Positions 21,973 to 38,812 of a stretch of 47,636 nt of DNA are shown here, in pieces. Both the position numbers and the translations under genes were made by a program. The DNA is from Rubritalea marina DSM 17716 (GTDB lineage: Bacteria; Verrucomicrobiota; Verrucomicrobiia; Verrucomicrobiales; Akkermansiaceae), in the NCBI RefSeq assembly GCF_000378105.1, contig NZ_KB899266.1:1-47636 (forward strand), given 5' to 3'. Numbering within the stretch: position 1 is the stretch's first letter; every line of letters begins with the position of its first letter. The notes below the pieces were generated by a model. It was given only the letters and a program-made list of their open reading frames with translations. It was not told the DNA's origin and did no database searches.

Positions 21973-22356
21973 ATGAAACGCATCGCCTTTATTCTTTGCC
22001 TTACCACATTATGTGGCAATCTAACCCTAGCTGAAGGTATTCAAAACATCGAAGCCAAGCAAGCCGCGGCTCTCCTTCAAAAGACCCCATCCATCACCGT
22101 GCTGGATGTGCGCACTGTGGATGAATTTGCCAATGGTCACATCGAGGGCGCCAAGCTCCTTGATGCCACCAAGCCAGACTTTAAGAAGCAGCTAGAGAAA
22201 CTGGATCGCAACAAGAGCTACCTATTACATTGCGCTAGTGGGGGGCGCAGCAAGCGAGCGCTCGCAGTGATGAAACAATTGGGCTTCGCCAACATTTACC
22301 ACCTTGATTCCGGTTTCGCTGGATGGGAGGAAGCTAAGCTTCCAAGCGCCGACTAG
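21973..22356 (+). CDS. Exported single-domain rhodanese
   Basis: It has 127 residues from the ATG at 21973; an upstream in-frame ATG at 21955 adds six residues ahead of the signal peptide. The signal peptide is MKRIAFILCLTTLCGNLTLAEG. One rhodanese domain follows: VLDVRTVDEFANGHIEGA, then the active-site loop HCASGGRS with Cys87, then GFAGWEEAKLP. The CxxGxRS geometry is that of sulfurtransferases carrying a persulfide. A periplasmic location is inferred from the leader. The gene is convergent with the CIA30 gene, with a hairpin between them. Confidence 0.9.
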   Translation: MKRIAFILCLTTLCGNLTLAEGIQNIEAKQAAALLQKTPSITVLDVRTVDEFANGHIEGAKLLDATKPDFKKQLEKLDRNKSYLLHCASGGRSKRALAVMKQLGFANIYHLDSGFAGWEEAKLPSAD

Positions 22357-22376
22357 TTCCGCTACTGCGAGTTTGG

Positions 22377-22421
22377 AGAGCACTAGCAATCCCCACCTAG
22401 TAGAGGAAGGATTGCTGCTCT
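22377..22421. terminator. Hairpin between convergent rhodanese and CIA30 genes
   Basis: AGCAATCC (22385-22392) pairs with GGATTGCT (22409-22416), extended by AGAGC with GCTCT across a small bulge. The right arm overlaps the last codons of the CIA30 gene. There is no long T-run, so termination is probable rather than certain. Confidence 0.45.
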
Positions 22422-22978
22422 TTGTATGCTTTAATCCAATCGAATTCGATTGTGAATGGCCCATCCTTTTTGTCGTAGATCATGAAACCTATGCTGTTGA
22501 CCTTAGTGATATCCAAGGTCTTACCGTCGACTTTTTGACCAAAAAAAGTCGGATAAAATGAACTAAATGGCACGCGCAAGGTGACCCACTTTCCTGCTTC
22601 AGGCTGGACTGGGCTCCAGTATGCCAGCCGTCTGTTGTCTGGATTCCTCACCGTGAGGTAGTACTTCCTTCCATCACCTTTTACCCGGAGCTCCACTCCA
22701 GCAAATTCGCCGAGATCTAGCGAGGCGCCGCTGGTGCGTATCGACGAGAAACCTCCTTGGTTTTCGAATGAAATTGATCCACTGAATACCATTGTTTCAT
22801 CCTTGCTCACAGCGGGGCCTCCTTCAGACACTCCGCCCATCACCGTGTCATTGATGGCTCGCCATTCCATCTTGGTACTGCCATTTTCAAAGTTTTCAAT
22901 GGTCATCACGTCGTTAGCCGTAGCTGTGGCCAACGCAACAACGCTGGCGAGGGAGCTAAATAAAGTTGTAGATTTCAT
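22397..22978 (-). CDS. Exported CIA30 (NDUFAF1-like) domain protein
   Basis: The 193-residue protein has a signal peptide (MKSTTLFSSLASVVALATATA). The CIA30 domain fills the rest: WRAINDTVMGGVSEGG (about 39-54), GGFSSIRTSG, GVELRVKGDGRKY, and near the C-terminus DWIKAYKE. The fold is a galactose-binding-like beta sandwich. Mitochondrial members assist complex I assembly, while bacterial exported members have no firm role. It is transcribed divergently from the B12-binding regulator, and the TTGTCTA-type repeats lie between them, the nearest 15 bp from this start codon. It may therefore be part of the same light/B12 regulon. Confidence 0.86.
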   Translation of the reverse strand: MKSTTLFSSLASVVALATATANDVMTIENFENGSTKMEWRAINDTVMGGVSEGGPAVSKDETMVFSGSISFENQGGFSSIRTSGASLDLGEFAGVELRVKGDGRKYYLTVRNPDNRRLAYWSPVQPEAGKWVTLRVPFSSFYPTFFGQKVDGKTLDITKVNSIGFMIYDKKDGPFTIEFDWIKAYKEQQSFLY

Positions 22979-22992
22979 CTCAATGCTTGGGT

Positions 22993-23010
22993 TTGTTTAC
23001 AATATGTCTC
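22993..23010. promoter_or_regulatory. CarH-type operator, block A (two 11-bp-spaced repeats)
   Basis: TTGTTTA begins at 22993 and ATGTCTC at 23004, exactly 11 bp apart. A third position 11 bp on (23015) is too degenerate to count. The block is immediately upstream of the CIA30 start codon (22978) on the minus strand. Confidence 0.45.
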
Positions 23011-23024
23011 ACTTTTCCCACTTA

Positions 23025-23053
23025 ATGTCTAGGTTTTGTTTCTAATTTCTCTA
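23025..23053. promoter_or_regulatory. CarH-type operator, block B (three 11-bp-spaced repeats)
   Basis: ATGTCTA at 23025, TTGTTTC at 23036 and TTCTCTA at 23047 are in phase at 11-bp spacing. They share the consensus wTGTYTM with one mismatch each. Block B lies between the two divergent start codons. Confidence 0.55.
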
Positions 23054-23066
23054 AAAAAAGTTGCTA

Positions 23067-23095
23067 TTGTCTAAAGTTTGTCTATTAATTGTTTC
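23067..23095. promoter_or_regulatory. CarH-type operator, block C overlapping a promoter
   Basis: TTGTCTA at 23067, TTGTCTA at 23078 and TTGTTTC at 23089 are three direct repeats with exact 11-bp spacing. A plausible promoter overlaps: TTGCTA (23061) and TATTAA (23083) with 16-bp spacing. A bound tetramer here would block the regulator and carotenoid operon, as known for CarH. Confidence 0.62.
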
Positions 23096-23117
23096 GGATA
23101 GCAATCAATCTTCTTTC

Positions 23118-24017
23118 ATGCACGGTATCAAAATAGCTTCACTTCAGTCAGGTCTCTCCGCTCACGTCATTCGCATGTGGGAGAAGCGCTACAATGCCGT
23201 AGAGCCACTTCGCACAGACACGAACCGCCGCCTCTACGATGAGGCCTGCATCGATCGCCTCAGCACCTTATCAAAACTCACTCAAGGAGGTCACAGCATT
23301 GGGCAGATCGCTCACCTCGACGACGCCGAGCTCCAGACCCTCTGCAACAACCTACCTGACCGCATCCCCAAAAACCTGGAGACCCCGAGCCAGCATCGCT
23401 TGCTAATCGACAAACTCCTGATCGCCATCGAAAAATTTGACAAGCAAGCCCACGACACCCTTCTAGATGAAGCGACCAAGGCTAACGGCTATTCTCACGT
23501 GCTTGAAAAAGTGCTAATCCCCTTCATTCAAGAAGTTGGCTCTCTGTGGCAGGAAGGCTCTTTCACCACCGTGCAAGAACACGCCGCTACGAGCTTCATC
23601 AAAGACTACCTCTGCGTCAGCGCTCAAGCCTTCGGGCACGAACCCAATGCTCCCAAACTACTGGTGAGCACGCCGCCCGGCCAACTGCACGAACTCGGTG
23701 CAGTCATTGCCTCCAGCCTCGCACGCAAGCTCGGTTGGCACGTGATCTACCTGGGAGTATCCACACCTCCTGAGGAACTCGCAGGAGCCGCGGAAACGAT
23801 TGGCGCTAAAGCCGTTTTACTCAGCATCATCTACCCACTGGATGACCCGATGATGGAAAACAACATTCTCAAAGTCCGCCAAAACATGGACTCAAGCATC
23901 AAACTCATCATCGGAGGCCCTCACTCTGAACACTACGAACCATTGTTCAAATCCATGGATCTCACCTCGCTCCACTCCATGGAAGATTTCAAAAATCAAC
24001 TTCAAGCCCTGCGTTAA
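23118..24017 (+). CDS. MerR-family B12-binding photoreceptor-type repressor (CarH/LitR-like)
   Basis: It has 299 residues from the ATG at 23118; an in-frame TTG at 23061 lies inside the operator and is rejected. The N-terminal MerR winged helix is GIKIASLQSGLSAHVIRMWEKRY. A four-helix B12-binding region contains the W-x9-EH signature (W144, E154, H155). A cobalamin-binding Rossmann domain follows with LHELG, where His191 is the expected lower cobalt ligand. In Thermus CarH the residue after the Trp is His (H132, bound after photolysis) and the first residue of ExHxxG is Glu; here both are Gln. Known members bind adenosylcobalamin as tetramers in the dark and fall off DNA in light. Position next to crt genes fits that role. 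Confidence 0.88.
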   Translation: MHGIKIASLQSGLSAHVIRMWEKRYNAVEPLRTDTNRRLYDEACIDRLSTLSKLTQGGHSIGQIAHLDDAELQTLCNNLPDRIPKNLETPSQHRLLIDKLLIAIEKFDKQAHDTLLDEATKANGYSHVLEKVLIPFIQEVGSLWQEGSFTTVQEHAATSFIKDYLCVSAQAFGHEPNAPKLLVSTPPGQLHELGAVIASSLARKLGWHVIYLGVSTPPEELAGAAETIGAKAVLLSIIYPLDDPMMENNILKVRQNMDSSIKLIIGGPHSEHYEPLFKSMDLTSLHSMEDFKNQLQALR

Positions 24018-24059
24018 GGCGAGCTGCCTCACGCATTTCCTTACCCAATAGAAAAATCC

Positions 24060-25583
24060 ATGAAAAAGAAAATCATCATCATCGGCGCAGGTCCAGGAGG
24101 CCTCACTAGCGGTATGCTTCTAGCGAGCCGCGGCTATGACGTAACGATTCTAGAAAAATCCAGTGTGGTTGGCGGGCGCAACGCGCCCATCCAAGCAGGG
24201 GGGTACACCTTCGACACTGGCCCTACCTTCTTGCACCAAAAATTCACTCTAGATGAAGTCTTTGCTGAGACCGGTAGACGCCCAGAGGACTACATGGACT
24301 TCGTCAAGCTCGACCCGATGACCACTCTCACTTGGGGAGATGTTTCCCTTGAGACTAGCTGTGACGAACAAAGCATGATGCAAAACATTGAGAAAGCATT
24401 CCCCGGTGAATCGGCAAACTACCAGCGCTTCATGCAAGATCATGCACTCAAACTCAAAAAGATCTTCCCTTGCTTGCTGAACTCCTACCACAAGCTCAGC
24501 AAATTCCTCAGCGGCTATTCAATCAAGGCGCTCCCCTACGTGGCCACCTCAAAGTCCGTGATGGACGTCTTGAGCGAGTACTTTGTGGATGAACGCCTCA
24601 AGCTAGCCTTCACCTTCCAAGCCAAATATCTCGGCATGTCACCGTGGAACTGCCCAGCTCTCTTTAGCATCCTTTCCTACATCGAATACGCACACGGAAT
24701 CTACCACGTGCAAGGCGGCCTCTCTAACATTTCTGCAGGCATGGCAAAAGTCTTTGAAGAAGAGGGTGGCACATTGCGCCTCAACGCAGAGGTTCAGGAA
24801 ATCCATTACCAAGGTAAAACGGCTTCGCACGTGACCCTCAGCACAGGAGAAGTCATCGAATGTGATGATCTCATCGTGAATGCCGATTACGCTCAGGCAC
24901 GTCACATGATTTTTGGAGAGCGCAACGAATCGCGCGAAGAGCAACTCGAGAAGAAGTACTCATGCTCCACCTTCATGCTCTACCTCGGGCTCGATACCAT
25001 CTACAATGATGAGCCTCATCACCACGTACTCTTTGCCGAGGACTATCATAAGAATCTCAAGGACATCCAGAACGAACAAGTCGTCTCCGACGACATGTCG
25101 ATCTACATCCGCAATTCGAGCGTCACTGATCCAACCGTCGCTCCCGAAGGTCACTCACAGCTCTACATCCTCGTTCCTACCATCAACTTGCGCAACGGCC
25201 ACGACTGGGATGCCACCGTCGCCGAATACCGCGAGAAGGTACTCGATCGCATCATCGAAAAGACCGGCATGAAAGACCTGCGTGAGCACATCACAGAAGA
25301 ACGCATCATCACCCCGAAAACCTGGGAGCAACAAGACATCTTCCTAGGCGCCACCTTCAACCTCGCCCACACCCTAGATCAAATGCTCTACCTGCGCCCT
25401 CGCAACAAAATGCAAGGGTTTGAGAATGTCTACCTCGTCGGTGGCGGCACCCACCCGGGGAGCGGCCTCCCAACCATCTACGAAAGTGCACGCATCTCAT
25501 CCAATCTGATCTGTGAGTCATACGGTAAAAGCCGCAAACGCGTCGACTTCGCGACCGAAATCCTCGAACAAGCAGCGTCCTAA
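24060..25583 (+). CDS. CrtI/CrtN-family carotenoid desaturase
   Basis: This 507-residue FAD enzyme has the N-terminal dinucleotide motif IIIIGAGPGGLTSGMLLASRG (residues 5-25), then VVGGRNAPI and TFDTGPTF typical of phytoene and diapophytoene desaturases. The C-terminal flavin motif is YLVGGGTHPGSGLPTIYESA (about 460-479). It would introduce conjugated double bonds into a C30 or C40 backbone. With the adjacent second family member and the suspected Rubritalea-like host, a C30 (4,4'-diapophytoene/squalene-derived) substrate is most likely, but chain length cannot be read from sequence. It begins 43 bp after the regulator and 10 bp before the next gene. No phytoene or diapophytoene synthase is in the window. 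Confidence 0.9.
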   Translation: MKKKIIIIGAGPGGLTSGMLLASRGYDVTILEKSSVVGGRNAPIQAGGYTFDTGPTFLHQKFTLDEVFAETGRRPEDYMDFVKLDPMTTLTWGDVSLETSCDEQSMMQNIEKAFPGESANYQRFMQDHALKLKKIFPCLLNSYHKLSKFLSGYSIKALPYVATSKSVMDVLSEYFVDERLKLAFTFQAKYLGMSPWNCPALFSILSYIEYAHGIYHVQGGLSNISAGMAKVFEEEGGTLRLNAEVQEIHYQGKTASHVTLSTGEVIECDDLIVNADYAQARHMIFGERNESREEQLEKKYSCSTFMLYLGLDTIYNDEPHHHVLFAEDYHKNLKDIQNEQVVSDDMSIYIRNSSVTDPTVAPEGHSQLYILVPTINLRNGHDWDATVAEYREKVLDRIIEKTGMKDLREHITEERIITPKTWEQQDIFLGATFNLAHTLDQMLYLRPRNKMQGFENVYLVGGGTHPGSGLPTIYESARISSNLICESYGKSRKRVDFATEILEQAAS

Positions 25584-25592
25584 CTTAAGGCC

Positions 25593-27119
25593 ATGAAATC
25601 ATCTCCAAGTATCGCAATCATTGGCTCCGGGCTCGGTGGGCTCTCCGCCGCCATTTCCCTGAAGTCCGCCGGCTACGATGTCGAAATTTTCGAAAAAAAC
25701 GAGCGCATTGGTGGCAAGCTCAACATCCTAGAAAAAGACGGCTTCACCTTTGATCTCGGCCCCTCAATCTTCACCCTCCCACAGTTCTTTGAACAGCTCT
25801 TCGCAAGAGCCGGAAGGAAGATGGATGACTACGTCCAACTCGATGCCGTCACTCCACATTGGAGAAACTTCTTTGAAAACCACCAAAGCATCGACCTCTA
25901 CCAAGAGCACGATCGGATGAAACACGAGCTCTCCAAGCTACCTGGCGACCTCGAACAACATTGGCGCGAGTTCACACAATTCCTCGAATACGCTCGCGAA
26001 CAATACCAAATCGTCGATGAAGGTTACTTCCGCGAAGGACTCGACAACCTCTGGGAATTCCTCTGGCACTACAAGAAACAACTCGTAGCCGGGAAAATTG
26101 ACTACAAAGGTAGCATGGCCAGCACCATCGAACGCCACATCAGCGACCCGAAAATGCGCCTCATCTTCGAGTATTTCATCAAATATGTTGGTTCCTCCGC
26201 ACTCGATTCACCCGGCTACATGAACCTAATGCCCATCATCCAATTTGATTATGGTCTGTGGTACGTTCGCGGCGGCATGTACAAGCTCGCTCAGGGGCTA
26301 GGAAAACTCATCAACGAGCTAGGCATCAAGGTTCACCTCAATGCTGATGTCACACAAATCACCAAACAAGGCAAGCAGGTCACCGGACTCCGCCTCAAGG
26401 GTGGCAGCACCCATCACTGCGACATCATCGTCAGTAACATGGAAGTGATTCCATGCTACGAACAATTACTCAAGGAACCCCAAAGCTTCGTCAAAAAGCT
26501 CGAAAAGTTTGCCCCCGCATGCTCGGGCATCGTCCTCCACATCGGCACAGACAAGATCCATGAGAAACTCGCTCATCACAATTTTTTCTACTCCGAAGAC
26601 CAGCACAAGCACTTTGAAACCGTCTTCCACAAAAAACAACTCCCCGACGATCCAACCCTCTACGTCGTAGCACCCACTCGCACCGACCCCACAAAAGCGC
26701 CTCAAGGTTGTGACAACATCAAGATCCTACCGCACATCCCGCCACTCGATGAACATGCTTCTATCACTCACGAAGACTATTTGGCACTCAAGGAACGCTG
26801 TATAGATAAGATGGAGCGCTGTGGCATCACTGGACTACGCGACAGCATCATCACCGAGGACCTCCTCACCCCTATCGATATCGAACGCATGTACCGGTCC
26901 AACAAGGGATCCATCTACGGCGTCGTCACCGACTGGAAAATGAACTACGGCTTCAAAGCCCCAAAAACCAGCAACCGCTACAACAATCTCTACTTCACCG
27001 GTGGCAGCACCAATCCAGGCGGAGGCATGCCAATGGTCATCCTCTCTGGCATGAAATGCGCCGACCGCGTGATCAAGCGCCACCCGATCAAGCAACTCCA
27101 ACCACTCCACGCAGGATAA
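25593..27119 (+). CDS. CrtI/CrtN-family oxidoreductase, possibly CrtP-type terminal oxidase
   Basis: The 508-residue protein is a paralogue of the preceding enzyme. The FAD motif is IAIIGSGLGGLSAAISLKSAG (7-27) with RIGGKLNIL and TFDLGPSIF. The C-terminal motif reads YFTGGSTNPGGGMPMVILSG (about 475-494). The NPGGGMPMV form is nearer to CrtP/CrtNb-type enzymes, which oxidise terminal methyl groups of C30 carotenoids, or to CrtD-type desaturases, than to first-step desaturases. Oxidation to an aldehyde or acid would fit the diapolycopenedioic acid derivatives known from Rubritalea. Gaps of 9 bp before and 4 bp after it indicate tight co-transcription. The exact reaction is an inference. Confidence 0.86.
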   Translation: MKSSPSIAIIGSGLGGLSAAISLKSAGYDVEIFEKNERIGGKLNILEKDGFTFDLGPSIFTLPQFFEQLFARAGRKMDDYVQLDAVTPHWRNFFENHQSIDLYQEHDRMKHELSKLPGDLEQHWREFTQFLEYAREQYQIVDEGYFREGLDNLWEFLWHYKKQLVAGKIDYKGSMASTIERHISDPKMRLIFEYFIKYVGSSALDSPGYMNLMPIIQFDYGLWYVRGGMYKLAQGLGKLINELGIKVHLNADVTQITKQGKQVTGLRLKGGSTHHCDIIVSNMEVIPCYEQLLKEPQSFVKKLEKFAPACSGIVLHIGTDKIHEKLAHHNFFYSEDQHKHFETVFHKKQLPDDPTLYVVAPTRTDPTKAPQGCDNIKILPHIPPLDEHASITHEDYLALKERCIDKMERCGITGLRDSIITEDLLTPIDIERMYRSNKGSIYGVVTDWKMNYGFKAPKTSNRYNNLYFTGGSTNPGGGMPMVILSGMKCADRVIKRHPIKQLQPLHAG

Positions 27120-27123
27120 ACCC

Positions 27124-27792
27124 ATGGACACCCCAAACGAATCCACACCCGCAGTCGTCGATACCAATAAACACACCATCGAATCCAAGTACTGGCACCA
27201 CCTACTCACCGATGGCAAGCGCCCCACTAGCGTCTACGCCTTCACCCAAGAAATCGGTATCGAAGAAGCCGAGTTCTACCGAGTCGCCACAAGCTTCGAA
27301 GCACTCGAAGCCAACTACTGGGAAGGCCTTGTCTCCGACACCATCGCCGTCCTCCACAAGGACGATGAATACCCAAGCTACCCACCAGAACAAAAGCTAC
27401 TCGCCTTCTTCTTCACCTTTTTCCTCCACGCGCAGAAGCATCGCTCACGCCTCGTCAGCTACTTCCCTGGAGCAAAGAACATGAACTTGATGAAGCCAAT
27501 GCGAAGCAAGTTCATCGAATTCGCCACTGAGGTCGTCAAAGAAGGCGTCCAAGACGGTAGCATTGCCGATCGCAAACAACTCACCACAAAGTACCCTCAC
27601 CTCCTCTTCGAACAACTCCGAGCCGTGGTGGAATTTCACAAACGCGACCAATCCGTAGACTTCCAAGACACCGATGCCTTAATCGAAAAGAGCGTGCGCC
27701 TCGGCGCCGACATCGCCAGCACAGGCACCCTCGATTCAGCACTCGATCTCGGTCGATTCCTCCTCGGAAAATGGACTCACCCCACCAACTAA
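27124..27792 (+). CDS. TetR-like protein with degenerate HTH, carotenoid-operon type
   Basis: It has 222 residues. The first 60 residues contain an HTH-like segment (SVYAFTQEIGIEEAEFYRVA, about 39-58) followed by FEALEANYW. The remainder is an all-helical ligand-binding-type domain with FFFTFFLHAQKHRSRLVSYF. This matches a TetR C-terminal family that is regularly found next to an ABC1 kinase in Bacteroidetes and Verrucomicrobia. The N-terminal part is shorter and less basic than in true TetR repressors, so DNA binding is not assured and a COQ9-like lipid-binding role is possible. The gene starts 4 bp after the second crt gene and ends 3 bp before the kinase gene. Confidence 0.75.
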   Translation: MDTPNESTPAVVDTNKHTIESKYWHHLLTDGKRPTSVYAFTQEIGIEEAEFYRVATSFEALEANYWEGLVSDTIAVLHKDDEYPSYPPEQKLLAFFFTFFLHAQKHRSRLVSYFPGAKNMNLMKPMRSKFIEFATEVVKEGVQDGSIADRKQLTTKYPHLLFEQLRAVVEFHKRDQSVDFQDTDALIEKSVRLGADIASTGTLDSALDLGRFLLGKWTHPTN

Positions 27793-27795
27793 ACC

Positions 27796-29100
27796 ATGTC
27801 CCTTAAAGAACAGACAAGCATCCCAAAAAACAAGATCTCCCGAGCAGGGAGGCTTGCCCAAACAGGCGTAAAGGTCGGCGTCAACTACCTCAAGTACAAG
27901 ACCAAAGCCATGATGGGAGATGACGATAAGTCTGAATTCCACGAGGTGACAGCCAAGCAAACATACGAAACATTCAGCGAGCTCAAAGGCGGACCACTCA
28001 AGCTAGCTCAAATGCTCAGCATGGATCGCAATTTGATCCCAGACCAATATGCCGACCAATTCTCGCAGGCACAATACAAAGCGCCCGCGCTGACCTACCC
28101 ACTCGTCGTCAATACCTTCCAGAAAGAACTCAGTAAACACCCCACTGAGCTCTTCGATAGCTTCACCAACAAAGCGGTATCGGCGGCCTCCATTGGCCAA
28201 GTCCACCAAGCCACACTTGGCGACAAAACCTTCGCCATCAAAATCCAGTACCCGGGTGTCGCCAGTAGCCTCAAGTCCGATCTCGCCATCGTCAAACCCA
28301 TCGCGATGCGCCTATTCCAACTCGATTCGAAATCTCTCGACCCCTACATCAAAGAGGTTGAGGAACGCCTCCTTGAGGAAACTAACTACGATATCGAGCT
28401 CGAGCGCTCACAGTTCCTCGCCGAGCAATCCAAGCATCTCAAACACACCCACTTCCCCAACTTTCACCCAGAATTCAGCAGCCAAAGGATCCTGACCATG
28501 GATTGGGTAGAAGGTGAGCAACTCGACACCTATGCCGAGTCAGATGCCAACGATGCGATGAAGCAACAAATTGCCCAGGCGCTCTGGGACTTCTATCACC
28601 ACCAAATCCACACGCTGAAGCTCTTTCATGCTGACCCACATCCCGGGAACTTCAAGGTTCACAATGATGAGCTATGGGTACTCGACTTCGGCTGCACCAA
28701 GGGTCTCGAAGAACGCTTCTATTGTGACTACTTCGGGCTCATGCAGCCAGACGTGCTGCTTCATGATGCCAAGTTCCGCGCAGTGCTACGCAAGCTTGGA
28801 CTTCTGCTAGACTCCGACAGTCCAAGGGAAGCCGACAAACTTACTGGGATTTTTAAAGAATCGGTCGCACTTCTCTCCAAACCCTTCTTCGAGGAAACCT
28901 TCGACTTCGGCGACAAAACCTACTTCGATTCCCTCGCAGCCTTTGGTGAACGTACCCGAAACGACAGCGAGCTCAACAAGCTCAACACTTCACGAGGGAA
29001 TGCCAATGCGCTTTACCTCAACCGCACCTACTTCGGGCTCTACCACCTAGTCGGTAGCCTCAATGGCCGAATCAAAGCCGAACTCCCTACGATCCCCTAA
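27796..29100 (+). CDS. ABC1/AarF (UbiB-family) atypical kinase-like protein
   Basis: The 434-residue protein has the UbiB-family layout. The KxGQ-type motif appears as GGPLKLAQML (about 64-73), with Ala in place of Gly. The alanine-rich nucleotide loop is AVSAASIGQVHQA (about 128-140), the invariant Lys is in FAIKIQYPG, the catalytic loop is FHADPHPGNF and the metal site is LDFGCT. These proteins are ATPases that act on quinone or other isoprenoid lipid metabolism at membranes; they are not classical protein kinases. No C-terminal TM helix is evident. Lying in a carotenoid operon, it may help extract or deliver isoprenoid lipids, which is inference from context. The start codon is 3 bp after the TetR-like stop. 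Confidence 0.9.
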   Translation: MSLKEQTSIPKNKISRAGRLAQTGVKVGVNYLKYKTKAMMGDDDKSEFHEVTAKQTYETFSELKGGPLKLAQMLSMDRNLIPDQYADQFSQAQYKAPALTYPLVVNTFQKELSKHPTELFDSFTNKAVSAASIGQVHQATLGDKTFAIKIQYPGVASSLKSDLAIVKPIAMRLFQLDSKSLDPYIKEVEERLLEETNYDIELERSQFLAEQSKHLKHTHFPNFHPEFSSQRILTMDWVEGEQLDTYAESDANDAMKQQIAQALWDFYHHQIHTLKLFHADPHPGNFKVHNDELWVLDFGCTKGLEERFYCDYFGLMQPDVLLHDAKFRAVLRKLGLLLDSDSPREADKLTGIFKESVALLSKPFFEETFDFGDKTYFDSLAAFGERTRNDSELNKLNTSRGNANALYLNRTYFGLYHLVGSLNGRIKAELPTIP

Positions 29101-29130: not shown

Positions 29131-29808
29131 ATGAAAACCTATCTCATCATCGGAGGATCATCTGGCATCAGCCAAGCCATTGCCAAAAGACTCAGCAACG
29201 CTGGTGAGACCGTCCTCACCGCCAGCCGCAGTGGCAGTGGGCCAAACCACCAACACTTCGACGCCACGCAGCCTGGCACCCTCGATTTGCCAGACCAACT
29301 CAACGCACTTGTCTACGCTCCAGGATCGATCACCCTCAAGCCCTTCCACCGCCTCACTGCGGAGGAAATGCTCCAGGAGTTCCAGCTCAATGCACTCGCT
29401 GCCGCGCAGGTGATCCAACAAGCCCTACCTGCTCTCAAACGCAGCTCTCAGGCCTCCATCCTACTCTTCTCCACCGTGGCCGTACAAACGGGCATGCCAT
29501 TCCACGCCTCTATCGCCATGGCCAAGGGAGCCATCGAAGGTCTCACCCGCTCGCTAGCCGCCGAGCTAGCCCCCAAGATCCGCGTCAATGCCATTGCCCC
29601 TTCGCTCACCCAGACACCCCTCGCCGACCCACTTCTCAACTCAGACAGCAAGCGAGAAGCCGCCGCCCAACGCCACCCACTCAAATCCATAGGCCAAGCC
29701 GATGACCTAGCCGAGCTCGCCACCTTCCTGCTCTCCGAAAATGCAAAATTTATCACCGGCCAAATCATCCAAGCCGACGGCGGCATCGGCTCGCTGAGAA
29801 CGTTTTAA
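29131..29808 (+). CDS. Short-chain dehydrogenase-like protein lacking the catalytic tyrosine
   Basis: It has 225 residues. The dinucleotide motif is LIIGGSSGISQAIAKRLSNAG (5-25), the NAG-type motif reads YAPG and a Ser lies in LLFSTVAVQ. The YxxxK position reads IAMAK, so Tyr is Ile128 while Lys132 is retained. The C-terminal signature ITGQIIQADGGI is intact. A group of SDR-like proteins with HxSIAxAKGAIEG in this place accompanies TetR-like/ABC1 kinase pairs in Bacteroidetes, so the change appears to be a property of the group and not a random lesion. It is the last gene of the carotenoid operon, 30 bp after the kinase. Its reaction, if any, is unknown. Confidence 0.86.
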   Translation: MKTYLIIGGSSGISQAIAKRLSNAGETVLTASRSGSGPNHQHFDATQPGTLDLPDQLNALVYAPGSITLKPFHRLTAEEMLQEFQLNALAAAQVIQQALPALKRSSQASILLFSTVAVQTGMPFHASIAMAKGAIEGLTRSLAAELAPKIRVNAIAPSLTQTPLADPLLNSDSKREAAAQRHPLKSIGQADDLAELATFLLSENAKFITGQIIQADGGIGSLRTF

Positions 29809-29910: not shown

Positions 29911-30507
29911 ATGCAACATTTTTGGACTCTCATCCTCGTCGCGTTTTGCGTCATCCAGCTCAGCTCCTGCAAGAGTGAATGTAGACGCTGCAGCTCACCA
30001 AGTGAAGCATCCGACACTGCCGCTACCGCAGAAGAACCTAAGCTCTCAGCTGAAGAACTCCTAGCCGCCCTCGGCGGCCATTACTTCGATGTAGAGCTAC
30101 CAGATGACACTCCCGAGAAATTCTTTATTCGCACCGCTCTGGTCAATTCAAAAGGCGAAATTCTCAGAAATTACGGCGGAATGGGTGTCCATAACGGAGC
30201 ACAATCAACACGAGTCTTCCTCTTTAAAGACGGCCTAAACATGAAAGAAGCGATATTCATCAAGAGCCCCAATATCGATGGCATCATCCACGGGTCGCAC
30301 TACAAGGGCACGGTAGAGCTACCGAAGCACATGAGTCATATGATATACCCACAAGGGAAAAGCATTAAACCAGGTGAAGGGATGATTCGGCTCAAGTATG
30401 AAGGAACCCAGTCAGGTGGTATTTCTGGCGGAAAACTCACTCAAGAAGATACCATAGACCTAACCGTCATCATTTCAGAAATGGATTCCTCATCCATCAC
30501 TCAATGA
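29911..30507 (+). CDS. Small lipoprotein, paralogue of 38207-38812
   Basis: The 198-residue protein has a lipoprotein signal (LILVAFCVIQLSSC, lipidated Cys20). The lipid Cys starts the pattern CKSECRRC, three cysteines that are spaced identically in the paralogue (CQSECNRC). The mature part contains LSAEELLAALGGHYFDVELP, RTALVNSKGEIL, RVFLFKDG, and the strongly conserved YPQGKSIKPGEGMIRLKYEG and GGKLTQEDTIDLTVII. I do not recognise the family. An envelope protein with a small beta domain is likely. Both paralogues share an upstream string TGTTAGG, 8 nt before the ATG, which includes the ribosome-binding site. Confidence 0.8.
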   Translation: MQHFWTLILVAFCVIQLSSCKSECRRCSSPSEASDTAATAEEPKLSAEELLAALGGHYFDVELPDDTPEKFFIRTALVNSKGEILRNYGGMGVHNGAQSTRVFLFKDGLNMKEAIFIKSPNIDGIIHGSHYKGTVELPKHMSHMIYPQGKSIKPGEGMIRLKYEGTQSGGISGGKLTQEDTIDLTVIISEMDSSSITQ

Positions 30508-32932: not shown

Positions 32933-34618
32933 TTAATACTCCAGGTGCAAGCAGGGTAAAAACTCATCGATGGCGTCACTCGATTCGTCTGACCAGACCA
33001 CATAGAGGTTCCAATTCGTTTGCTTGCCAAATAATTTACGCCAAGTGTCGGTGATCAGAAACTCGGGGTAGTTGTCGATGCCATTACCGTCTTCATCACC
33101 AAACCAATAAATAAAGGTTCTTTCGATCCCCTGCTCTTCGTGAACAAGCAGCAATTTCCTCGCCTTTGCACGCTTATCATTCGCATTCAAGAATTCGATC
33201 GACTCGCTGCTAGTCGGCTTCCACCCGAGGCCAAATTGGCAATACTCGGGAGTGTGGATGGTTTTACGATTCCCATGAGATGGCACAATCATGACCCCAA
33301 CCTGCTTCTCTCCTTGCACATAATTCCGCGAAATGATGTTCCCTCGTTGGTAGAAATCAAAAGTTTCTTCATCGACAATGTCTGTCCCTTCCCAGGCCAT
33401 TTGATCACCCAGAATGTATGGCAACACCAGAGAGGAACGACTCACACTCGACGGCTCCACACGCACCACGTAGAGCATGGCTAATAATGCTAGCGCTGCA
33501 GAAGCAAGCATCGAGGTCGTCCAAACATTGCTCAGTTCACCATGACTTGATCGTTGTTTGAGTGGCAGGCTGTACTTCACGAACACAAACACTGCTACCG
33601 CGGTCAGCACAAACTTCCCCACTAATGGCACCACCATCCCATTGGTACCAAGAAAGAAATTGATGATCTCACTCACTTTAGGAAATGATAAGAAGATCAC
33701 AAACTGGAATGGCAAGGCTCTCAGCGCAAAGCTCACATTGCGATACGCCAAACCCACTGCGAAAAGGGAAAGCATCAGAGTAACTCCCAGTACATAGTAG
33801 TTGGGCCCGGGAAGCTGCGAGAGTACCGCGACTAATGAACCAAAAGCAAAAAGGAGCGCACCATGCTTCATGCGACGTGTGTCTGGATCTGTCCGATGCC
33901 AGAACCAACACCAAGCAGCAAGCCCACCCAAAAAGAAGATGTAGCCGAACTTGTCGTAATGGTTGTACACCGTGCCTTTCCATGCTTCGAGACAAGCAGA
34001 CAGCACAGGCAAATAAGTCAGCACAAGAAGCGCTAGAGTGATCGGAAGTACATTATTAGAAGATCTGGCACGTTTCTTAGACACCTGCTCAGACTGCTTC
34101 TTATCGGCGAGTGATTCCGTGATGATGAAGTAGGCTGCCACAGCAAGGGTGAAGGCCATGAGCCCAATCAACGAATGCAACCATCCGTCCGCGATCACCT
34201 CACCTCGATGGTAGCTAGCCCAAAGAAGTGCTGTGAGACGAATGCTGTTGGCGATCACCGCAAGGATCACTGCCAACAACACCGCAATCAATTTGTTGAA
34301 TAAGCGGATTCTAGGGTGAATCCCTGACCAAACGATCCCAGTAAAGATAAAGGCTCGGATCATCTCTGACCCGCTGCACGCTGGAATGATGTCAAACACC
34401 ATCCCTTCCAGTGATAAAATAGTGCCCTGTCGTGACACCTCTAGATGGGTCGCCCTCAAGAACACTTCGGCCAACATCGCCGACACTTCTCGCAACTCGA
34501 CAGCGTAGCTCTCAAACACAATCGGTATTCCAAAGAACGCAGCCACGGCGATGACGATAGTCAAAACCATACGCCACCATGGGGCAGCCTGCTGAACCTG
34601 CGTCATTTCTTTACTCAT
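32933..34618 (-). CDS. Exosortase fused to an EpsI-like C-terminal domain
   Basis: It has 561 residues and many transmembrane helices. The exosortase catalytic set is visible: Cys81 in IIPACSGSEM, Arg127 in NSIRLTALLWASYHRG and His148 in DGWLHSLIG. After a second membrane block (about 185-370) comes an extracytoplasmic EpsI-like domain (about 380-561) with the family's HTPEYCQFGLGW. In many bacteria EpsI is a separate gene. Exosortases cut PEP-CTERM tails and pass the protein to the surface. The start at 34618 is chosen because its ATG overlaps the TPR gene's stop (ATGAGTAA), indicating translational coupling; an upstream ATG at 34642 lies deeper in the TPR gene. It is the third gene of a minus-strand operon that begins with a PEP-CTERM protein. 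Confidence 0.9.
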   Translation of the reverse strand: MSKEMTQVQQAAPWWRMVLTIVIAVAAFFGIPIVFESYAVELREVSAMLAEVFLRATHLEVSRQGTILSLEGMVFDIIPACSGSEMIRAFIFTGIVWSGIHPRIRLFNKLIAVLLAVILAVIANSIRLTALLWASYHRGEVIADGWLHSLIGLMAFTLAVAAYFIITESLADKKQSEQVSKKRARSSNNVLPITLALLVLTYLPVLSACLEAWKGTVYNHYDKFGYIFFLGGLAAWCWFWHRTDPDTRRMKHGALLFAFGSLVAVLSQLPGPNYYVLGVTLMLSLFAVGLAYRNVSFALRALPFQFVIFLSFPKVSEIINFFLGTNGMVVPLVGKFVLTAVAVFVFVKYSLPLKQRSSHGELSNVWTTSMLASAALALLAMLYVVRVEPSSVSRSSLVLPYILGDQMAWEGTDIVDEETFDFYQRGNIISRNYVQGEKQVGVMIVPSHGNRKTIHTPEYCQFGLGWKPTSSESIEFLNANDKRAKARKLLLVHEEQGIERTFIYWFGDEDGNGIDNYPEFLITDTWRKLFGKQTNWNLYVVWSDESSDAIDEFLPCLHLEY

Positions 34619-36956
34619 GGATCGTTTGTAGTGCGACTTCAATGTCCCCGCGCTTGATCGGGCTCGATTCCCAGAACGCTGAATCGAGATCTAAAATATT
34701 CTGATAGATGGTGGCCGCTTCTTCCATGTAGCCATGGTCTCGATAGGCAGCCGCCACATACAGCTGCAGTCCCAACTGTGGATTTTCAGGTGTTTGACTG
34801 ATCACCTTGCTCAGATAGCGTTGAGCCTCATCCAACTTGCTCTTCTGGAGTGTCTCGATCGTTTGCTCCATGGCCAACTGGGTCATGGCCACGACCTTCA
34901 GTGCAATGGCATCCACGTCCTCGGGATTTTGATTCAGCACTCTCTCCACCTCCCACAGAGCGTCAGATGCTTTGCTGGATTGAAGGTAGAGCTTAGCCAG
35001 TCGATTGAATGTGTATGCACTATTGGAATCTATATCCGCCGCTTGGCGCAGCGTCGCGATCGCCTCCTCGGTCTCACCATTCAATTCGTGGATGATGGCT
35101 AGCCCATGCAAGGCAGTGACATTCTCAGGATTACTCTCCAAGACGGCACGGTAAAGCTCTTGCGCTTGCCCGGTCCTTTTTTCGATCACCAAGAAACGCG
35201 CATAGTCTAGGTAGCCATGAAGGTCATCCTCATCCATCGCCTTCATGAAAAGTTGTTCAGCTTTCGCTGCATTGCCTTTTTTCAGCTCCAGCCTTGCCAA
35301 GATCAGATGCTTGCTCCTCTCTGGCACTTGGGATTTACCGAGCTCACGGCGCAATTCATCTTCACGGTTCTGACTGACCAAGGCCATGTAGTAGATCATC
35401 TGGAGCTCCAGGTTTTCTGGATTCGCCAGCGCAATCGGGCGAATTTGCTCCAGCGCCTGCGCATCATTGTTATTTTCGAGCGCCTTGCCAATTTTACGGA
35501 GCTGGAAGCTCAAGTCATTTTTGAAGCGTTCGTTGAGCACTCTCTCCACATTCTGCACATCATAACTGTCATTGGCCGCCACACCCACTTTGGAATACAA
35601 CAAGATTGAATCCGGTGTGAATGCACCACGTTGGTGCAAGTGCGCTAGAATAGCGAGCGCTTGACTCGCTTGGCCGTTGAGCTCGTATGCTCTAGCAACT
35701 TCTAATAGAAATAACGGAGACTTGTAAAAGCAACCTGCGAGCCCTTCGATGCGCGCCAGTGGGTGGATCGACTCCAGGCTTTGATACAGAGCCACAGCAT
35801 CGGCGGCTTTCCCTTCAGTTAGGAAATAGCGGATCCCCAACCACTTGAGCACTGGTGAGTCGCCAATCAACGAGCTGATCCGCGCGTAGTTCGAGTTGCT
35901 ACCAGCACTCAAAGACTCGCCAAGGAATTGGTAAAAAATACGCTCACCTTCAATTTGCTTCTGGCTCACACGGAGACCCAAAAGTGGTGTGGGTAGCGTC
36001 CCAGGTGGGACATGCTTTAGCTCAGCGTTCGCGATCTGATGAAGATCACTAAAGCTTGCCTCGTTCTGTTGGATGATCACCCGTAGTAGAGCCAGGAAAA
36101 TGCGAGCTTCATGCGACACCGTGATGGCGATCGGATGCTCTGAATCGGCGTCTTTTAGCGACTCTAGGGTGGCGAGAGCTTCGGGTAGGTCGCCTCCTAG
36201 AATTTGTAGCATGGCCATCTTTAGCTGCCACTCGCCATGGGGATCTTCTGCCTCATAGGCATTTGCCTTCTCCAAGGCATCCTCCACTTGGTTATCAAAA
36301 ATCATTAGAGACACCAACATGTTCATCCCCTCATCAGAGAGGTGACCCAATGCCTCTTGTTCATAGAGAAAGGCGATCGCTTTCTCACGCTTACCGGTCA
36401 TTTCCAGCTTGCGAGCGATCTGCAGTACCAGACCTTCGGCTGGATTTGATTCGTGCAGCGCCTTCCAAATGAGGAGAGCTTCCTCGTGTTCGCCAATTTG
36501 AGAATAAAATCGCGCCTTGGCATTGAGATGACGAGGAGTCTGCTCCAGATGCGCAAACAACTTATTGAAGAGAGCAATTTTCTCACTACGTGACCCTTCC
36601 AAATCATCGACGATCACGAGGATCGCAGACAACTTCCTTTCGCCCAGATCCCATGCTTGTTGCATGTGATCAGCAGCTTGATCAGGCTTTTTAAGCACCA
36701 CCGCAAGGTGCCCTGCTTGAAGAGCTACCTTGCCTTGGTTCGGATCATTTTCTAGAGCCAGTAATGCTTGCTGGTATGCCTGAGAATAGGCTCCCGCGCG
36801 GGTCAGAGCTAGTATACCCTCGGCCGCTGTTTGCTTGGATCCGGCAGTCGTTTCATTTTCTGGTGTGGGATCAACCTTGATCGATACCACAAGTACAATT
36901 GCACAGAGTGCCGCAATACCGCCTAATATCAGTAAGCCGAGGGTTTTCTTTTTCAT
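34611..36956 (-). CDS. Membrane-anchored TPR-repeat protein of the exosortase operon
   Basis: The 781-residue protein starts with a signal anchor (LGLLILGGIAALCAIVLVVSI, about 6-26) and continues with a long series of 34-residue TPR units, for example YSQAYQQALLALENDPNQGK near 57 and ALHGLAIIHELNGETEEAIA near 645. TPR solenoids bind peptides or assemble complexes. Giant TPR proteins (PrsT type) regularly accompany exosortase loci, and this gene lies between the PEP-CTERM substrate and the exosortase. It ends 8 bp inside the exosortase gene. A scaffold role for export of the substrate is likely, though not shown. Confidence 0.87.
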   Translation of the reverse strand: MKKKTLGLLILGGIAALCAIVLVVSIKVDPTPENETTAGSKQTAAEGILALTRAGAYSQAYQQALLALENDPNQGKVALQAGHLAVVLKKPDQAADHMQQAWDLGERKLSAILVIVDDLEGSRSEKIALFNKLFAHLEQTPRHLNAKARFYSQIGEHEEALLIWKALHESNPAEGLVLQIARKLEMTGKREKAIAFLYEQEALGHLSDEGMNMLVSLMIFDNQVEDALEKANAYEAEDPHGEWQLKMAMLQILGGDLPEALATLESLKDADSEHPIAITVSHEARIFLALLRVIIQQNEASFSDLHQIANAELKHVPPGTLPTPLLGLRVSQKQIEGERIFYQFLGESLSAGSNSNYARISSLIGDSPVLKWLGIRYFLTEGKAADAVALYQSLESIHPLARIEGLAGCFYKSPLFLLEVARAYELNGQASQALAILAHLHQRGAFTPDSILLYSKVGVAANDSYDVQNVERVLNERFKNDLSFQLRKIGKALENNNDAQALEQIRPIALANPENLELQMIYYMALVSQNREDELRRELGKSQVPERSKHLILARLELKKGNAAKAEQLFMKAMDEDDLHGYLDYARFLVIEKRTGQAQELYRAVLESNPENVTALHGLAIIHELNGETEEAIATLRQAADIDSNSAYTFNRLAKLYLQSSKASDALWEVERVLNQNPEDVDAIALKVVAMTQLAMEQTIETLQKSKLDEAQRYLSKVISQTPENPQLGLQLYVAAAYRDHGYMEEAATIYQNILDLDSAFWESSPIKRGDIEVALQTIHE

Positions 36957-37028: not shown

Positions 37029-37895
37029 TTATGCTTGTCTAAGCACAGACCTTGATTTGTAGAGCATTCCAGCCACGGCGATCAACACCATGAACATCGC
37101 TTTTGGTTCTGGAGCTCCAGAAGGTGCTACAGCAACGATTGATTGCGAGAAACTACCAGCCTGAATGAACACAGCTGAGTCGTAATAATTGTCTCCAGCA
37201 TCCGCGATGCCCATCATGATGTTGTAGCTCTGTCCCGCTTCGAGGCCAGTGATCTCCGCCGTAAATACATCTGTGAAACCATCGTATTCAAATGCGTATG
37301 GCGCACCATTTCCGATCGAGTTATCATTGAATAAATCTGCATTATTCACATTGCTCACGGTATTGATCGACACCGCAGTGTCGGTACCTGGAAGCAAGGC
37401 CACATTTTCACCATTCACAAAGAATCCGAAAACGTCGTTGAAGCTGGAGCCAACCCACTCGACATATTCCTCAGATGCAAAGGCGTAGTTAAAGTAGGCA
37501 GAATCTCCGCTGCTCACAAAATCAAAAGAAAGGACTGTTGCGTCATAAGTGCTGTAGCCTGGAATCAGAGTATTCAAGGTGCTATCGCCTGCCGCTCGTA
37601 AATTCGTACTGGTCGATTCGCTAGTATTGCTATTCGCACCAGCCGACGAGGCGAGGCCACTTGTCAAAATAACGCCTGAACCGATGTCGTTGCCAGCAGC
37701 ATAGCCGCCACTGAAGTAACCGGAAGCACCATTGCTACCCGTGTACTGGACGTTACTGATTTGGATACCTGGGCCAACGAGAGATTGCGCCAAGGCCTCC
37801 GCCGAATCCATCGGCGTGATCGTCGTTTGAGCGAATACTGGAGTGCTGGCAGCCAGCAGGATAAGACTAATTTTATTGGGGGGTGTAATTTTCAT
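37029..37895 (-). CDS. PEP-CTERM surface protein with choice-of-anchor L domain
   Basis: It has 288 residues from the ATG at 37895; an in-frame TTG at 37904 is less likely. A signal peptide (ISLILLAASTPVFAQ) leads to a choice-of-anchor L domain with YAFASEEYVEWVGSSFNDVF (around 140-159) and FFVNGENVALLPG. The C-terminus ends in a PEP-CTERM sorting tail: GAPEPKAMFMVLIAVAGMLY, then a basic KSRSVLRQA. The tail marks it as a substrate of the exosortase encoded two genes downstream, so this looks like a dedicated substrate-sortase operon. The surface function is unknown; members of this domain family often bind or build extracellular matrix. Confidence 0.9.
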   Translation of the reverse strand: MKITPPNKISLILLAASTPVFAQTTITPMDSAEALAQSLVGPGIQISNVQYTGSNGASGYFSGGYAAGNDIGSGVILTSGLASSAGANSNTSESTSTNLRAAGDSTLNTLIPGYSTYDATVLSFDFVSSGDSAYFNYAFASEEYVEWVGSSFNDVFGFFVNGENVALLPGTDTAVSINTVSNVNNADLFNDNSIGNGAPYAFEYDGFTDVFTAEITGLEAGQSYNIMMGIADAGDNYYDSAVFIQAGSFSQSIVAVAPSGAPEPKAMFMVLIAVAGMLYKSRSVLRQA

Positions 37896-38206
37896 CGCTA
37901 CCAAGGTAGATAAAAATCATCATTTTGACGACAAAAAATAATACTTTGTGATGAAAAACAAATAATTGCGTGACATGGAACACCACTAATCCAGTAGGAA
38001 GAAGAATCCATCTAAGCCCCTAGAAATCAACAATTAAAACCACCAAACTAGTGAAAATGAGCTTCTTTTTCATTCGAAAAAAAGTGCTTCAGTTAGGGAG
38101 GCCTAACCATCAAGCCTCGCGTATTGACATGATTTTCAATGACTAAGCCAGCCATTCTGCACAAGCTTTAGATTGTATCTACCTCAGCATTTGTTAGGTT
38201 AATGCT
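37896..38206. other. Divergent intergenic region between exosortase operon and lipoprotein 2
   Basis: The 311-bp A+T-rich region holds the promoters for the PEP-CTERM operon (minus) and the second lipoprotein (plus). A small perfect hairpin, TTAGGGAGGCCTAA, lies around 38093-38106. TGTTAGG at 38192 is 8 nt before the lipoprotein ATG, as in the other paralogue. No gene is seen. Confidence 0.5.
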
Positions 38207-38812
38207 ATGAAACACGTCTTTCTCCCCTGTAGCGCACTCAGCTTGCTGCTCTTGAATGCCTGCCAATCTGAATGCAATCGCTGCAAAATCAGCGAAGGTG
38301 AGAGCAAAGCGCAACAGGAAAAACTCTCAACAGAACTCACTGCTGAAGAGCTTTTGAGTGCTCTCAACGGTCACTTTTTTGATGTCGTGCTTCCTGAAAA
38401 CCGTAGCGAAGCGATCGCCGTCCGCACTGCATTGATTGACTCGAATGGCGATGTTCTAAGCTACTATGGTGGCGCCACGGTCGGTACAGACACAGCTTCT
38501 GTGCGCGTGATCCTCTTCAAAGAAGGGGAACACATCAAAGAAACCATCCAGTTGGAGTCGATACGACACGAGGACACTCTCTCAGCCTCAAAGTTTCAAA
38601 CTGAATACGTCTTGCCTCCGCACTTGGGCAGCATCAGCCACCCACAAGGTCGCAGCATCAAGCCCGGAGATGGCTTGATCCGCATGTACCAAGGAGAGGA
38701 AGCAGCCTTCACCATCGCTGGCGGCAAACTAGCACAAGAAGAAACTCTCGATCTCACCGTCGTTATCACACCATTTGGCACCTGCCCCCCGAGCAAAGGC
38801 TCGCATGAGTGA
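38207..38812 (+). CDS. Small lipoprotein, paralogue of 29911-30507
   Basis: The 201-residue protein has a lipobox LLNAC and the cysteine pattern CQSECNRC. It aligns along its whole length with the protein at 29911: LTAEELLSALNGHFFDVVLP, VRTALIDSNGDVLSYYGG, ISHPQGRSIKPGDGLIRM and GGKLAQEETLDLTVVI. I do not recognise the family. The two genes are in the same orientation 8.3 kb apart and flank a region of accessory content. It is followed by mogA after 86 bp. Confidence 0.8.
   Translation: MKHVFLPCSALSLLLLNACQSECNRCKISEGESKAQQEKLSTELTAEELLSALNGHFFDVVLPENRSEAIAVRTALIDSNGDVLSYYGGATVGTDTASVRVILFKEGEHIKETIQLESIRHEDTLSASKFQTEYVLPPHLGSISHPQGRSIKPGDGLIRMYQGEEAAFTIAGGKLAQEETLDLTVVITPFGTCPPSKGSHE

Follow-up and report, generated by a model that had tools for sequence, protein, structure and literature searches.

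The intergenic array at positions 22993-23095 of the window (the whole 47,636-nucleotide stretch of the Rubritalea marina contig analysed here) is very probably, at roughly 85%, a multi-block operator lying over divergent promoters and serving the neighbouring CarH-type (class I LitR) B12 photoreceptor-repressor. The repeats fit the known CarH motif, are conserved in sequence and strand orientation beside part of the orthologous regulators, and adjoin a gene whose product has the B12-domain make-up of the family. The regulator would then bind the array and repress from it in a manner dependent on light and B12, with predicted promoters on either side and the CIA30 gene among the putative targets. 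An earlier note had taken the site for a likely CarH operator, and recurrence, motif fit and regulator domains now support that reading. No CarH work on this bacterial order was found in the open-licence literature, a scope outside which most subscription papers fall.

The array consists of seven TGTYTM words and one weak copy in three blocks, with steps of exactly 11 bp inside each block and of 21 and 20 bp between blocks. All lie in the minus-strand orientation. Block A comprises TTGTTTA at 22993-22999 (minus strand TAAACA, a full TnnACA) and ATGTCTC at 23004-23010 (GAGACA, a pseudo-repeat); block B comprises ATGTCTA at 23025-23031 (TAGACA, full), TTGTTTC at 23036-23042 (GAAACA, a pseudo-repeat) and TTCTCTA at 23047-23053, which is weak and without the ACA core. 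Block C begins with two TTGTCTA words (TAGACA, both full), at 23067-23073 inside the candidate promoter spacer and at 23078-23084 overlapping the candidate -10, and ends with TTGTTTC at 23089-23095 (GAAACA, a pseudo-repeat), near the expected transcription start. The eight copies proposed earlier are all found at their positions with 11-bp steps inside blocks, but as recognisable words only seven fit TGTYTM, the copy at 23047 being weak.

In the operator passages of two papers, the CarH repeat is written nnnnTnnACAn (PMC9304148) or alternatively nAnnTnnACAn (PMC8156234). Read on the opposite strand, TGTCTA becomes TAGACA, which is a full TnnACA; the array holds four full copies (22993, 23025, 23067 and 23078) beside three GnnACA pseudo-repeats. 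The full copies at 23067 and 23078 are directly adjacent, giving the tandem 11-bp repeats with a TnnACA core by which CarH operators are recognised. The proposal of TTGTCTA as a CarH-type repeat therefore holds for the unit, but not for its direction: the canonical TnnACA is on the minus strand and points away from carH. The Sorangium operator, as footprinted according to the relevant passages of PMC9304148, lies between divergent genes and combines a single full repeat with two pseudo-repeats; since such a site is bound, blocks B and C come near the accepted range, and block A, with two units only, is the poorest of the three.

The regulator gene (23118-24017, plus strand) encodes, from 23118 to 24014, a protein of 299 aa with Pfam domains MerR_1 (6.4e-13), B12-binding_2 (4.2e-11) and B12-binding (1e-13). 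Among solved structures it comes closest to two Thermus proteins, 3whp (named probable transcriptional regulator) and the CarH chain 5c8d; the alignment to 5c8d reaches 6.1e-29, with equivalents of Trp131, Glu141 and His177 kept. The Wx9EH motif that contacts the adenosyl group is present as WQEGSFTTVQEH, and a lower cobalt ligand of the His177 type is seen where GQLHELG aligns to GERHEIG. The call of a CarH-like regulator next to the array is thus well founded, with a MerR domain, both B12-binding domains, Wx9EH and the cobalt-ligating His. Its best NCBIfam match is the equivalog TransRegCarH at 124.5 bits, below the 400 cut-off, so the protein is not filed under that CarH equivalog. The light-state ligand of the His132 type, seen in Thermus, is replaced by Gln directly after the Trp. 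This ligand is not taken here as defining CarH or class I LitR. On the regulator's own branch of the tree described below, 8 of the 37 proteins with intact Wx9EH carry His directly behind the Trp, as do 0 of 52 others. An H132A protein is described in part of PMC10442372 as mostly staying tetrameric in light, where an earlier report saw disassembly. Gln at the His132 place offers a natural test of whether the light response needs bis-His ligation.

On the far side of the array lies the divergent CIA30-domain gene (22397-22978, minus strand; Pfam CIA30 2e-42), whose product has an N-terminus that by eye resembles a signal peptide. Behind carH, all on the plus strand, follow a phytoene desaturase family gene at 24060-25583 and a second crtI-family desaturase gene at 25593-27119 (TIGR02734 at 445.5 and 363.2 bits, cut-off 238.1), a TetR-type regulator gene (TetR_C_23) at 27124-27792 that is likely in the same operon as carH, an ABC1/UbiB-like kinase gene at 27796-29100 and a short-chain dehydrogenase gene at 29131-29808. 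Farther along the window, 29911-30507 and 38207-38812 look by eye like paralogous secreted lipoproteins with a Cys-rich N-terminus (the first gave no Pfam match), and 32933-34642 and 37029-37904 resemble, again by eye, an exosortase-like membrane protein and one with a PEP-CTERM-like tail.

A strict promoter scan gave no sigma-70 match. Relatives provide a guide to the carH promoter: a TTG stands 8 or 7 bases before repeat 1 of the proximal pair in 11 of 18 loci, with at most 3 at other offsets (a count made without the near copies L073 and L084 and without L013 and L110, which have no proximal pair). The corresponding place here suggests TTGCTA at 23061-23066 (plus strand) as a candidate -35, and TATTAA at 23083-23088, 16 bp after it, was picked by eye as a candidate -10. 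With the TA that ends repeat 2 as the start of the -10, the spacing across aligned proximal pairs is 16-17. Given that TnnACA reads away from carH, the proximal block would sit on the spacer and -10 rather than supply the -35.

Conservation was followed across homologues from 386 genomes of the order, 93 of which matched at 1e-25, and from 58 relatives. The 97 loci examined include 92 that are alike to the query over the B12-type length (Pfam was run on three of these; Wx9EH is present in 89) and 5 that are B12-less. Three partial matches (G074, G195 and G071) were left out, as were, among the 58 relatives, the weak and mostly B12-enzyme-like rows after L031 and G026:C11; near copies among the rows are L072/L073, L083/L084 and L014/L077/L079. 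The scan covered 300 bp upstream, present at full length in 96 of the 97.

Absence of the repeats upstream of orthologous regulators had been named in advance as what would speak against a CarH operator. They are kept, specifically in lag and strand but not universally: TGTCTA pairs matching in at least 11 of 12 letters stand at lag 11 in 25 of the 97 loci, no other lag between 6 and 33 accounts for more than 5 loci, and on the opposite strand 2 loci have a lag-11 pair. When the words were reversed or complemented, no lag-11 pair was seen, nor did a downstream control contain TGTCTA pairs at lag 11. Exact TGTCTA pairs show the same preference (lag 11 in 11 loci, other lags in at most 2). Looser minus-strand TnnACA pairs at lag 11 occur in 22 of the 25 strict-pair loci and 8 of the remaining 72. 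Within those 72, exact 6-mer repeats show no preference for lag 11.

The pattern follows the regulators themselves. In a tree of the 92 proteins (the B12-less L027-L031 left out), which is midpoint rooted so that we speak of branches rather than clades, a branch supported at 100/96 separates 38 rows, which contain all 22 B12-type operator loci, from 54 rows with none (22 of 38 versus 0 of 54). The operator label changes 7 times on the tree against a shuffled mean of 19.9, and 0 of 500 shuffles were as low. The strict pair is absent in 16 of the 38 own-branch members. A looser TGTnnA pair is found in L111, L085, L119, L106, L095, L082 and L115, and L015 has its pair farther upstream, before a fasciclin gene that precedes carH; L012 (of the same genus), L087, L105, L016, L081, L014, L077 and L079 have no pair even with loose TGTnnA. 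The looser pair is likewise found in none of the 54 rows of the other branch. Of the 12 genomes in the own genus, only 3 possess a full carH homologue; apart from R. marina that leaves two, one with the pair.

How far the array reaches in the divergent direction is the point on which the best surviving rival differs. It would make the array a CarH operator for the carH/crt promoter only, with blocks A and B decayed or accessory and CIA30 unregulated, and it is unlikely in our judgement, if by no means far-fetched. Block C indeed matches best, at a promoter-like position seen again in relatives, blocks A and B have one full TnnACA each, and no -10 could be placed for the divergent CIA30 gene; yet strict pairs also lie distally, around -83 to -135, in 15 of the 22 B12-type operator loci, and 10 of these 15 have a proximal pair as well, and the bound Sorangium site (PMC9304148, in the passages on that operator) is itself one full repeat with two pseudo-repeats between divergent genes. 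Divergent neighbours also recur. By tblastn over a flank of ~1.5 kb, a divergent CIA30, fasciclin, ECF sigma, SOUL, photolyase or crtI gene is found in 26 of the 38 own-branch loci, a figure that is partly by construction, the families having been picked from these same loci; the same query set gave 0 of 54 in the other branch. A raw tally of 27 takes in L013, whose sole match is to TetR/UbiB on the downstream side; L013 is not among the 26. Fasciclin accounts for 13 and CIA30 for 9 of the 38, and 18 of the 22 own-branch loci with the operator have such a neighbour. Pfam confirms these families in examples (a short ORF in L080 gave no Pfam match), and CIA30 is again divergent from carH in the same-genus genome G005. 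The recurrence of these neighbours makes it more likely that the array could control both directions, and the operator makes CIA30 and fasciclin proteins likely candidates for co-regulation. Separately, one protein encoded divergently from carH (L085:2493-3836) carries CIA30 and fasciclin domains together. An algal fasciclin protein is described, in an abstract, as binding carotenoids; the same abstract describes fasciclin domains as having no common small ligand.

Another regulator could in principle own the site, such as the operon's TetR-type protein, with carH beside it by chance. The TetR-type gene does lie downstream in the same direction, but no inverted repeat was found in the intergenic stretch, 11-bp direct repeats are the CarH binding mode in the passages of PMC8156234 concerned, and presence of the operator tracks the CarH tree (the relatives' flanks of ~1.5 kb being too short for TetR linkage), so that this reading is very improbable. 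A search of 22300-24100 for Rfam families at gathering thresholds also returned none.

The array stands out statistically where its motif is used. The triple WTGTYTMN4WTGTYTMN4WTGTYTM with up to 3 mismatches has 5 matches in the window, all in the array, against 0.08 expected, and the 139-bp intergenic stretch holds 7 TGTYTM words and 4 lag-11 pairs, either number reached by 0 of 20,000 dinucleotide shuffles. The stricter published core TGTnnA, the complement of TnnACA, gives a less extreme result: its 4 words are at least equalled in 540 of 20,000 shuffles and its one lag-11 pair in 221. Tested without any motif, the window by itself shows no significant periodicity: in 2747 of 3000 shuffles some lag was as strong as 11, and lags 9, 20 and 22 outscore it. 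The case for an 11-bp periodicity therefore comes from the motif and from the relatives. That result and the stretch's GC content of 31% are what could be said for an accident of AT-rich intergenic DNA with T-runs, a reading hardly credible against 0 of 20,000 shuffles with the motif and a lag- and strand-specific recurrence in 25 of 97 loci.

Looking beyond the array, a search of the whole genome for the repeats, as suggested earlier, set this site apart as the sole perfect triple but gave no convincing second target. With up to 2 mismatches the triple has 9 matches in the own genome against 5 for a reversed control. The exact pair TGTCTAN5TGTCTA likewise occurs once in the own genome, in the array, and shows no enrichment in the 58 genomes (17 against 17 reversed); allowing one mismatch, the own genome has 6 against 8 and six relatives have 38 against 40. 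Directly upstream of carH lie 14 of those 38. As the genome-wide count equals the control, only places beside the regulator carry signal, and no wider regulon is claimed. The five other pair places in the own genome at one mismatch are three inside genes and two intergenic (L147 and L149); L147, between divergent genes, is a possible further target. In the same-genus G005, an exact TGTCTA pair lies away from carH at L071:4914, 41 bp upstream of a sigma-70 family gene.

The repeat also occurs beside a sister family of regulators. L029, L030 and L031 join a CarH-like DNA-binding domain to a C-terminal part with CECPxH. Pfam, run on two of them (L067, which is the L029 gene, and L068, which is the L031 gene), found no B12 domain. 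These B12-less MerR regulators (L067:8283-9257, L068:9149-10192 and L180-L209) have matches in 73 of the 386 genomes of the order, a few of them partial or to the DNA-binding domain only. Among the 30 best loci, to which the upstream scan was limited and two of which are identical to L029 and L031, CECPxH is present in 29. A lag-11 pair lies on the regulator's sense strand in 9 of the 30 and on the opposite strand in 6, together 13 loci; no other lag exceeds 3 on the sense strand, the opposite strand reaches 7 at lag 29, and reversed and complemented controls gave 0. Many of these 30 loci have a divergent gene that looks ECF-sigma-like from its first residues, confirmed by Pfam in one. We tentatively entertain, as possible though doubtful, that one 11-bp code (TGTCTA/TAGACA) serves two sensors in this order, the CarH-type B12 photoreceptors and a widespread B12-less CECPxH family often divergent to ECF-sigma-like genes, so that the code would have outlived a swap of sensor. 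In the B12 branch the code might also govern secreted-looking CIA30 and fasciclin proteins that may bind or carry the co-induced carotenoids.

For the operator under the B12 photoreceptor, a simple cycle can be envisioned from sequence and precedent. In the dark, the CarH-like protein loaded with adenosylcobalamin would bind the minus-strand TAGACA-type 11-bp direct repeats, block C covering the spacer and -10 of the promoter for carH and the carotenoid operon, blocks A and B standing ahead of the divergently transcribed CIA30 gene. On illumination the cobalt-carbon bond would be cleaved and the protein released, and both directions would be derepressed. If this reading is true, the array keeps genes for carotenoids, which are sunscreen pigments, off in the dark. 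It provides a recurring and directly testable operator for a B12 light sensor in this bacterial order.

Comparison with known systems, drawn from the operator passages of the papers cited, shows both kinship and departure. Like published CarH operators, the array has head-to-tail 11-bp spacing and a TnnACA core, and published sites overlap the -35, the -10 or both (PMC9304148, PMC8156234); unlike them, it has three blocks, 20-21 bp apart, over ~100 bp, with TAGACA-type words whose TnnACA reads away from carH. The Pseudomonas class II LitR sites, TGTACA-N12-TGTACA, share a LitR/CarH-family repressor, light-induced genes and a related core, but have an 18-bp step and palindromic words, and their regulator is said to lack one of the two B12 domains (PMC9758184). 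In Myxococcus xanthus, the CarA/CarH operator (DR1-dr2-DR3-DR4-dr5) likewise combines full and degenerate 11-bp repeats with a sigma-70 type promoter, but in ~55 bp of adjoining repeats, with the -35 TTGACA within a sense-strand repeat (PMC9304148). Also similar in layout is the divergent crtI-carH operator of Sorangium cellulosum, where carH is one side of the divergent pair, full repeats and pseudo-repeats are mixed, and one regulator serves both directions (PMC9304148), as is proposed here. There a single three-repeat site is proposed for both promoters, whereas in R. marina the blocks are spread and each promoter could own one.
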